NCBI RefSeq assembly: GCF_000384115.1
Contig: NZ_KB913029.1
Coordinates: 1,150,907-1,214,906, forward strand
Direction: 5' to 3'
Length of the DNA stretch: 64,000 bases
Origin: Sporichthya polymorpha DSM 43042
GTDB taxonomy: Bacteria > Actinomycetota > Actinomycetes > Sporichthyales > Sporichthyaceae
Shown: positions 56,075-58,301 of the stretch, piece after piece
Position numbering within the stretch: position 1 is the first letter of the stretch
Layout of the letters: every line of letters starts with the position of its first letter
Notes under the pieces: model-generated
What the model saw: the letters and a program-made list of their open reading frames with translations, nothing else
What the model was told of the DNA's origin: nothing
Database searches by the model: none
Program-made: the position numbers and the translations under genes

Positions 56075-57086
56075 CGTCGCCTCAGATTCGCCGGCAGGGT
56101 CGGCTCCAAAGATCGTCGACGTCCACGCCCACGCGGTGCTCGAGGTCAGCCTCGGCGCCGCGGGGGCGGCGGGGCCGGAGCTCGGCGTCACCGAGGACGG
56201 CACGCCGTTCTACCGCGTCGGCGAGTACGTGCTCCGCGGCGTCCGCTACCGCGGCTCGCCGTTCATGGACGTCGACGTGCGGCTGGCGGCGATGGACGCC
56301 GCCGGCATCGACGTCCAGCTGCTCTCCCCCAACCCGCTGACGTACTTCGGCCGGCTCGACGCCGACGCGGCGATCGGGTTCGCGCGCACGCACAACGACG
56401 CGCTCGCCGCGCTCGTCGGCAAGCACTCCGACCGCCTGCTCGGCGCGGCCCAATTGCCGATGCAGGACGTCCCGGCCGCGATCGCCGAGCTGCGGCGCAG
56501 CGTTCGCGACCTCGGACTGCGCGCGGCGTACATCGACACCGACCCCGCCGGACGGACGCTCGACGACCCCGCGCTCGACCCGCTGTACGAGGCGCTGGTC
56601 GACCTCGACGTCCCGCTGTTCGTGCACCCCACGCCGCTCGGGGAGCAGGGCCCGCCGGACGACGTGCGGCTGCGCCGGTTCGACCTCGACCTGCTGTTCG
56701 GCTTCGCCCGCGACGAGACGCTCGCCGTCGCGGCGCTCGTGTGCGGCGGCATCCTGGAGCGGCACCCCGGTCTCGACGTGTGCATCAGCCACGGCGGCGG
56801 GGCCGCCGCCTTCCTCGCCGGCCGCCTCGCCCGCGCCGTGGAGGTCCGGCCGTGGGCCTCGAAAGCCCTGCGGGAGAACGGTTTCGCGCACTACTACCGG
56901 CAGCTGTGGTTCGACACCCACGTCCACGACGCGGGCTCGCTCGAGCTCCTCGCCTCCCACGCCGGCACCGAGCGCCTGGTGTTCGGCACCAACTTCGCGG
57001 GTTGGGACTCCGGCGCGCACGACGGCCCCGGCCCCCTCGCCCCCACCCTCGCCGCCAACGCGGCCCGGCTCCTCCGCCTCCCCTGA
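56067..57086 (+). CDS. Amidohydrolase-2 family protein (ACMSD-like)
   Basis: The 339-residue protein starts at the GTG at 56067, eight bases into the end of the previous gene. KIVDVHAHAVLEV keeps the full HxH metal motif. LFVHPTPLGEQG near residue 190 and DVCISHGGGAAAFLAGRL near 240 hold further ligands. The last strand reads LVFGTNFAGWDS in place of the more usual GSDYP. Such proteins decarboxylate or hydrolyse aromatic ring-cleavage products. It is the last gene of the molybdenum hydroxylase operon. Confidence 0.85.
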   Translation: MSDVASDSPAGSAPKIVDVHAHAVLEVSLGAAGAAGPELGVTEDGTPFYRVGEYVLRGVRYRGSPFMDVDVRLAAMDAAGIDVQLLSPNPLTYFGRLDADAAIGFARTHNDALAALVGKHSDRLLGAAQLPMQDVPAAIAELRRSVRDLGLRAAYIDTDPAGRTLDDPALDPLYEALVDLDVPLFVHPTPLGEQGPPDDVRLRRFDLDLLFGFARDETLAVAALVCGGILERHPGLDVCISHGGGAAAFLAGRLARAVEVRPWASKALRENGFAHYYRQLWFDTHVHDAGSLELLASHAGTERLVFGTNFAGWDSGAHDGPGPLAPTLAANAARLLRLP

Positions 57087-57091
57087 CCCAC

Positions 57092-57124
57092 CCCTGCAGT
57101 GGAGATGACATCTCTTGTGCAGGG
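57092..57124. repeat. Z1 hairpin repeat
   Basis: The 31 bases 57094-57124 match 57511-57541 at 30 of 31 positions. The arms CCCTGCA and TGCAGGG enclose a second inner pair (AGATG and CATCT). A 20-base perfect repeat follows 18 bases later (57143-57162). Confidence 0.75.
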
Positions 57125-57142
57125 CCGGCCGAAACCATTGGA

Positions 57143-57162
57143 GGGCGCGGTTGGCGCCGCCG
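57143..57162 (+). repeat. 20-base copy of the SDR 3' coding end
   Basis: GGGCGCGGTTGGCGCCGCCG occurs here and at 57560-57579, where it encodes the last residues of the SDR at 57552. In this copy the SDR stop codon position reads TGG in place of TAG, so it is a decayed duplicate. Confidence 0.75.
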
Positions 57163-57187
57163 CTGCCTCGGTGCCCGCGGGCCGAGG

Positions 57188-57257
57188 TGCACCGAGTGCG
57201 CAGTTGAGCACGGGTGCCCGCGCCTCGGCTGGTGCTGATCTGCGCACTCGGCGCAGG
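57188..57257. repeat. X1 70-base hairpin repeat
   Basis: This segment matches 57413-57482 at 68 of 70 positions. Its ends TGCACCGAGTGCGCAG and CTGCGCACTCGGCGCA pair with one mismatch, so each copy can fold into a 16-base stem with a 38-base loop. Confidence 0.8.
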
Positions 57258-57290
57258 TGGGCACCCCCAGGGGGCCCGGAGGTGCTGTCT

Positions 57291-57315
57291 TGCGCTTTGG
57301 GGAGAAGGAAGCACG
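57291..57315 (+). repeat. Y1 25-base direct repeat
   Basis: The segment starting TGCGCTTTGGGGAGAAGG matches 57343-57367 at 22 of 25 positions, 52 bases apart and in the same direction. Confidence 0.65.
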
Positions 57316-57342
57316 CCGAACGGCCGTTCCCGCGTGCTGTGC

Positions 57343-57367
57343 TGCGCTTTCGGGAGAAGGAAGTACC
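57343..57367 (+). repeat. Y2 25-base direct repeat
   Basis: This is the partner of Y1 (57291-57315). Both lie between the two X repeats. Confidence 0.65.
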
Positions 57368-57412
57368 TCGACCGGCCGCGCGCCGCGTCCCCGTCGCCCG
57401 CGCGGGCCGATC

Positions 57413-57482
57413 TGCACCGAGTGCGCAGTTGAGCACGGGTGCCGGCGCCCCGGCTGGTGCTGATCTGCGCACTCGGCGCAGG
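57413..57482. repeat. X2 70-base hairpin repeat
   Basis: This is the second copy of X, 225 bases after X1, with two differences in 70 bases. Confidence 0.8.
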
Positions 57483-57510
57483 CGGGCCCGCGAGCTGCCG
57501 CCCCGCACCA

Positions 57511-57541
57511 CTGCACTGGAGATGACATCTCTTGTGCAGGG
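57511..57541. repeat. Z2 hairpin repeat
   Basis: This is the second copy of Z, 417 bases after Z1, and it ends ten bases before the SDR stop codon (57552-57554). Confidence 0.75.
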
Positions 57542-57551
57542 TGGGTGGGGA

Positions 57552-58301
57552 CTACTGCAGGGCGCGGTTGGCGCCGCCGTCGACGGGGATCGCGGCGCCG
57601 GTGACGTACGCGGCGAGGTTCGAGCACAGGAACGCGACGAGCGCGCCGAACTCGGCCGGTTCGCCGAGCCGGCCGGCGGGGACCCCCGCGAGCTGGGCGG
57701 CGAGGGCCTTGTCGTCGAACACGCGGCGGACGCGGTCGGTGGCGTGAACGCCGGGCTGGACCGAGTTCACGGTGACGCCGTCGGCCGCGACCTCGGTGGC
57801 GAGGGTGCGCAGGAAGCCGGTCGCGCCGGCGCGGGCGGCGTTGGAGAGCGCGAGGTTCGCGTAGGGCTGGCGGACCCCGAGCGAGGTGATCGCGACGATC
57901 CGGCCCCACTGCTGCGCGCGCATGTCGGGCACGACCGCGAGGCACTGGCGCACGACCGCGAGCAGGCTGCGGTCGAGCGCCGCCTGGTACGCGTCGGCCG
58001 GGGTGTCGAGCGCGGTGCCCGCCGCGGGGCCGGGGCCGTTGACGACGAGGACGTCGAGCCCGCCGAGCCGGTCCCGAGCCTCGAGCACGAAGCGCTCGGC
58101 CCCGAGCGGGTCGGCGAGATCGGCGACGAGCCACTGCGTCCCGCCGCCGAGCTTGTTCGCGGCGGCCTCGGCGCGGCCGGCGTCCGACCCGCAGATCACG
58201 ACCTCCGCGCCCTCGGCGACGAGGGCCTCGGCGCAGGCGTACCCGAGTCCGGCGCTCGCGGCGCCGACGGCCGCTCGGCGGCCGGAGAGTCCGAGATCCA
58301 T
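57552..58301 (-). CDS. Short-chain dehydrogenase/reductase, atypical active site
   Basis: The 249-residue protein has a Rossmann start (GRRAAVGAASAGLGYACAEAL), a VNGPGPAAG strand near residue 80 and the FabG-like end AIPVDGGANRALQ. The usual YxxxK is replaced by PYANLALSNAARAG, the SNxxR pattern of a known divergent SDR branch, so the Lys is lacking. It may still be active or act on a different substrate. Its start at 58301 is four bases after a small ferredoxin gene (stop at 58306). Its 3' end is duplicated in the repeat island. Confidence 0.83.
   Translation of the reverse strand: MDLGLSGRRAAVGAASAGLGYACAEALVAEGAEVVICGSDAGRAEAAANKLGGGTQWLVADLADPLGAERFVLEARDRLGGLDVLVVNGPGPAAGTALDTPADAYQAALDRSLLAVVRQCLAVVPDMRAQQWGRIVAITSLGVRQPYANLALSNAARAGATGFLRTLATEVAADGVTVNSVQPGVHATDRVRRVFDDKALAAQLAGVPAGRLGEPAEFGALVAFLCSNLAAYVTGAAIPVDGGANRALQ

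Follow-up and report, generated by a model that had tools for sequence, protein, structure and literature searches.

Analyses of the spacer between an amidohydrolase gene and an SDR oxidoreductase gene in the window (the whole stretch of 64,000 nucleotides that was analysed) showed that the repeat island found there brings together members of three interspersed repeat families, designated Z, X and Y, at the shared 3' ends of the two converging genes. The Z family most probably consists of dispersed palindromes resembling the repetitive extragenic palindromes (REPs) and the Rickettsia palindromic elements (RPEs), which would be useful or at least tolerated at the 3' ends of mRNAs, tolerated in protein loops and homogenised within each species. 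In the following, G000 is the genome under study, G001 and G002 belong to the same genus, and G001 to G004 are draft genomes; copy counts rest on genome searches together with individually read stretches.

Organization of the repeat island

Gene calling by codon usage, with the window as training set, placed the two converging genes 465 nt apart, and the entire island lies inside this spacer. The features of the region are the following.

56136-57086, + strand: amidohydrolase gene, PF04909 (codon-usage gene call; Pfam 8e-35); its 3' end is the island border
57094-57122, + strand: Z1 palindrome, CTGCAGTGGAGATGACATCTCTTGTGCAG, starting 7 nt past the amidohydrolase stop
57142-57162, - strand: exact 21-nt copy of the SDR 3' coding end, with TGG replacing the stop in the adjoining codon; the orthologous site of G002 is without this copy
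57181-57258, + strand: X1, long hairpin repeat, core CCGAGTGCGCAG...CTGCGCACTCGG
57282-57314, + strand: Y1, the first of two units of the 52-nt tandem repeat Y, core TGCGCTTTCGGG
57334-57366, + strand: Y2, second Y repeat unit
57406-57483, + strand: X2, the second long hairpin, which over 70 nt matches X1 at 68/70 positions; either of the two may be the counterpart of the single X in G002
57511-57539, + strand: Z2 palindrome, CTGCACTGGAGATGACATCTCTTGTGCAG, lying 12 nt beyond the stop of the SDR gene (itself on the - strand)
57552-58301, - strand: SDR oxidoreductase gene, PF13561 (codon-usage gene call; Pfam 1.4e-45); its 3' end is the island border

The three repeat pairs described in a preceding sequence-only reading of this DNA were all found again: the best 31-nt pair (Z, from 57094) was identical at 30 of 31 positions at an offset of 417, the best 70-nt pair (X, from 57188) at 68 of 70 at an offset of 225, and the Y pair (from 57291) at 22 of 25 at an offset of 52. 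The same reading had reported a 20-base copy of the SDR 3' coding end in which TAG had become TGG; the match proved to be 21/21 (57142-57162 against 57559-57579) within a pair that extends to 74 nt at 85% identity, and in the copy TGG stands at the place of the SDR stop TAG (reverse strand, 57552-57554). The Z-X-Y-Y-X-Z order of the units likewise held, while their interpretation as a single nested unit did not, each being a direct copy of a dispersed family.

The Z, X and Y patterns were each observed twice in the 64-kb window and not once in dinucleotide shuffles of it; the island repeats are genuine and chance is ruled out. Hairpin folding of the island Z and X units gave z values of -2.8 to -8.3 relative to shuffled sequences, and the island Y units folded no better than shuffles. 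A source of structured RNA, another suggestion of the sequence-only reading, is a possible role of the island. An Rfam search returned no family for the island palindromes, just sub-threshold microRNA-like matches, and no intrinsic terminator, defined as a G+C-rich hairpin followed by a U-tract, was detected in the region 56900-57700.

The orthologous site in G002

The G002 orthologues of the two flanking genes encode proteins 97% and 96% identical to those of G000, and the site between them reads amidohydrolase-Z-X-Z-Z-SDR over about 220 nt, with one X, no Y and no copy of the SDR end. It is simpler than the G000 island and not identical to it. The suggested duplication at a gene's end finds support in this site, from which the SDR-end copy, the Y-Y pair and the second X are all missing. 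The G000 block formed by Z1 and the SDR-end copy resembles the last-Z/SDR block of G002 (86% over 77 nt), and the SDR-end copy retains a CTC codon that is found in G002 and missing from the present G000 SDR gene.

The simpler Z-X-Z-Z arrangement in G002 argues that the SDR-end duplication was a local rearrangement inside the repeat cluster. The simplest reading of the copies and of the G002 site is that the G000 lineage would have enlarged its island by local repeat-mediated rearrangement, in which a Z together with a gene-end segment may have been copied beside the other Z, by template switching or by unequal exchange between Z copies; the Y-Y pair and the second X would have been gained in the same lineage. 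Alternatively, the difference may be due to loss in G002 instead of gain in G000.

Orthologous sites were compared over about 394 kb with G002 and at 22 loci of G001. Between G000 and G002, whose DNA is 91% identical, most compared Z sites were common to both, with differences in arms and spacers, and because the compared sites are mostly shared there is no sign of present-day Z mobility.

Copies and distribution of the three families

A blastn-type search with the island as query gave 71 matches in G000, and further copies of all three units were found in both G000 and G002. The designation of the island as a REP array, one of several offered in the sequence-only reading, is well supported, as Z, X and Y each have many further copies, mostly at gene 3' ends, with Z found also in frame within genes.

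Z is a palindrome with the core GAGATGWCATCTC, and 58 such cores in 33 clusters were counted among the G000 loci read. A 22-nt Z pattern with at most 3 mismatches gave 45 strand-hits in G000 and 0 with the reversed pattern as control, while the symmetric form of Z gave 49+56 matches in G000 and 135+140 in G002 (control 0-1) and none in 57 genomes outside the genus. The exact 20-nt Z pattern, which is strict, had no match in the reference genome collection, from which very near genomes are perhaps left out; the plasmid collection gave no match, and the exact pattern was matched once among viral contigs. Alignment of 47 copies of both forms showed stem pairing in 75% of cells, against 66% in shuffles and 35-48% in slid controls, and a stem covariation of 0.285 against 0.170, figures in which pairs 9-13 are partly selected because the aligned copies were picked by core patterns. 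The outer arms are paired in only about half of the copies.

About 30 copies of X were found in G000, mostly at gene 3' ends; the X consensus folds as a hairpin whose covariation is weak because the X core is nearly invariant. Y forms arrays of period 52 in G000, with X intermixed, for example at G000:C1:2793415-2793900, and an X-Y-Y-X-like array recurs once in this genome, at G000:C1:2793579, with 75% identity. All three families are present in G002, Y is present in G001, where the G000-type Z form is absent, and one clear relative of X was found in G003. A ten-unit Y array, mostly of period 52 and with one X embedded, lies between converging genes in G002 (L273:940-1570, contig C12). Several Z copies were also observed at the extreme end of the G000 chromosome record, near its start point (L013:1490-2740, G000:C1:5498889-5500140).

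Position of Z relative to genes and in-frame copies

Among the 25 classifiable intergenic Z clusters none lay between divergent genes (P about 2e-4) and 11 lay between convergent genes, where 15% would be expected (P about 4e-4). From the preceding stop codon to Z the median distance was 7 nt, and 19 of 27 clusters were within about 20 nt of a stop. Six G000 clusters lie inside called genes and in frame, are often paired and are usually read as GD(D/V)IS(S/T); one of the six, L035, is placed at the very C-terminus in a different reading frame. The core spacings inside ORFs were 27, 36, 36 and 36 nt, that is multiples of 3 in 4/4 cases against 5/19 outside ORFs, although the 36-nt spacing at L014 may be a non-coding case because the local coding score of the frame is poor. 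At this locus (L014:1470-1730) a Z pair and Y units occur together in one long open frame, with a coding score near zero at one core.

An in-frame insert relative to homologues was found in the gene for the mycofactocin glycosyltransferase MftF (L038:723-2219; G000:C1 about 859,000-860,400), which carries the repeat-derived sequence APTGDDISTGSAAFVGDDISTAAG, about 27 extra residues in G000. The G002 orthologue carries a shorter version of 15 residues at the same site, 12 other actinomycetes have none to two extra residues there, and the TIGR03965 match of the protein splits exactly at the insert. A THUMP-like methyltransferase contains about 12 extra residues in comparison with G003, G004 and G007. 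Two candidates were rejected as proven Z insertions: the copy in an acyl-CoA synthetase lies in a variable region with no net insertion relative to PDB homologues, and that in an AfsR-like linker also falls in a variable region. In a molybdopterin/flavodoxin-type reductase gene (L021:3-3101, L233:2-3001) G000 and G001 have palindromes of their own species' form at one shared internal site, and the G000 gene contains a second palindrome in another frame (PALEMSSPVG). Annotators should be aware that a short GDDIS(S/T)- or ADDIRS-like stretch in one of these proteins can derive from a repeat.

The Z form of G001

At the methyltransferase site G001 carries CGGATGACATCCG where G000 and G002 show GGAGATGACATCTCC. 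This variant led to the prediction of a form used throughout G001, which was borne out by the counts of GGATGWCATCC: 106 in G001, 1 each in G000 and G002, 11 in G003, 0 in G004 and 0 in the control. The 11 occurrences in G003 lie mostly in ordinary coding sequence. In comparison with the Z core the stem of GGATGWCATCC is altered symmetrically, the two species forms contrasted as a pair being GAGATGACATCTC and CGGATGACATCCG. Most of the G001 copies read are located immediately downstream of stops, frequently in tandem arrays of 25-27 nt; occasional copies lie within genes. The copies near stops show an orientation bias, 24 having T at the centre in the sense direction and 8 having A.

Comparison of 22 G001 loci, picked regardless of G000, with the 33 G000 clusters revealed two clear shared sites and one weak one, against an estimated chance expectation of about 0.3. 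The two clear sites are inside the molybdopterin/flavodoxin reductase gene and at the end of an fbiB-like F420 ligase/nitroreductase gene. At both of these, and in the methyltransferase gene, G000 and G001 carry different forms at the same site. The variant form in G001, in some cases at Z sites, therefore indicates that the family turns over in concert in each species while its sites are kept.

In a second arrangement observed in G001, two palindromes of the GGGATGWCATCCC type are separated by exactly 59 nt and enclose an inverted TCGACCG/CGGTCGA (L234:300-390, L236:1510-1600, L244:4735-4815 and L251:1446-1525). With this internal inverted repeat the whole would form one hairpin of about 90 nt and looks like a discrete element.

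Origin and possible role of Z

On the reading that we consider probable, that of REP/RPE-like palindromes, Z would disperse, multiply in tandem and settle where it is tolerated, either just past stops or in frame in protein loops. Dispersal may depend on a putative enzyme that recognises the palindrome as DNA, and the copies just past stops would, judging from their position, act as mRNA 3'-end hairpins. Z would then be homogenised in each species, in keeping with the symmetrically altered versions that sister species carry at sites that are at least partly the same. A RAYT as mobiliser of Z was rejected given the absence of the REP transposase family PF01797 (Y1_Tnp) from all five genomes, G000 to G004, in a search that detected its positive controls.

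It is also conceivable, though we think it doubtful, that Z is mainly a hairpin that terminates transcription or stabilises mRNA and owes its spread to selection at gene ends and not to selfish dispersal, with one Z for each converging gene of the island. Such a role agrees with the location of 19/27 clusters within about 20 nt of a stop and of none between divergent genes, with Z1 and the last Z flanking both stops in G000 and G002, with the stability of the Z hairpins and with the preference of near-stop G001 copies for one orientation (24 vs 8); however, the island has neither a U-tract nor an intrinsic-terminator match, in-frame inserts in MftF and other genes are unexpected of terminators, a terminator needs a stem and not an invariant 13-nt sequence, and the outer stem of Z is often unpaired. 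The invariant, symmetric core and its symmetrical change between sister species at retained sites would suit a binding site for a dimeric protein, such as a nucleoid or recombination factor, or an uptake-sequence-like tag comparable to the DUS dialects of Neisseriaceae, with the species forms produced by co-evolution. DUS, too, differ between species as dialects, can lie inside genes and form inverted pairs at terminators (PMC3630211). We regard this explanation as unlikely: there are roughly 60-150 palindromes per genome against thousands of DUS, and the orientation bias in G001 and the tandem arrays fit dispersal or an RNA function at least equally. A broader form of the idea, to which we give equally little credence, would have Z as genome-wide palindromic marks read by a putative trans-acting factor whose drift in specificity rewrites all of them symmetrically in place (GAGATGWCATCTC to CGGATGWCATCCG-like), at gene ends and in proteins alike, leaving species dialects at inherited sites.

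That the island is one composite MITE-like element with the body Z-X-Y-Y-X-Z, inserted at the SDR end, is highly improbable. The single further X-Y-Y-X-like array in G000 weakly supports the insertion of a composite, but Z, X and Y also occur independently elsewhere, in the orthologous site of G002 Z and X are already present and Y is missing, and the island is flanked by a duplicated gene end together with Z (85% over 74 nt) and not by a short target-site duplication. A MITE-like nature would at most be putative, as neither a target-site duplication nor a mobiliser (PF01797) was found, and the composite-element reading is largely refuted by the G002 site. The symmetrically matched forms of sister species at inherited sites allow a direct question to be put, whether repeat palindromes turn over through re-invasion, through gene conversion or by co-evolving with a binding factor.

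Comparison with known repeat systems

REPs are defined by GTAG or CGTC tags and lie downstream of genes, sometimes within them (PMC3733652). Z is a short, dispersed, multi-copy palindrome found downstream of coding regions in convergent or tandem spacers, and it resembles REPs and BIMEs, which are palindromes of 20-40 bp that number from tens to hundreds, group in pairs and for the most part follow converging or co-directed genes, some copies being intragenic, with dimers that encode 20-30 residues (PMC3733652). It differs from them in that the GTAG/CTAC tag accompanied 0/58 cores (2.3 and 2.0 expected), CGTC and GACG occurred near 5/58 and 4/58, below the 12.6 and 13.0 expected, no Y1/RAYT transposase was found in five genomes (G000 to G004), and sister species have a symmetrically altered stem at shared sites. 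Z was not assigned to the GTAG or CGTC REPs because the tag and RAYT tests failed.

With the RPEs Z shares in-frame palindromic inserts in unrelated functional genes that are kept in the protein (PMC10969869, PMC3733652), such insertion relative to homologues being found in MftF and the THUMP-like methyltransferase. The two differ in that the Z host is a high-GC actinomycete and the Z unit is 27-37 nt against about 150 bp for RPE; most Z copies read lie past stop codons. The DUS of Neisseriaceae are similar in that one motif has species-specific forms, lies in part inside genes and occurs as inverted pairs at gene ends, whereas they number in the thousands (PMC3630211), Z copies are far fewer and the Z unit is itself palindromic. 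Prokaryotic MITEs such as ERIC are also small repeats near genes with occasional in-frame fusions (PMC10969869), but for Z no body with terminal inverted repeats, transposase partner (searched as PF01797 alone) or target-site duplication was found, and the duplication flanking the island is a gene end.

No report of such a palindromic family in actinomycetes was found in the open-access literature searched, and the in-frame, protein-invading REP-like repeats of the cited literature are from Rickettsia and other, mostly Gram-negative, bacteria. The present case is an actinomycete genus with an untagged, RAYT-less family, of which sister species carry different, symmetrically matched versions at inherited sites.
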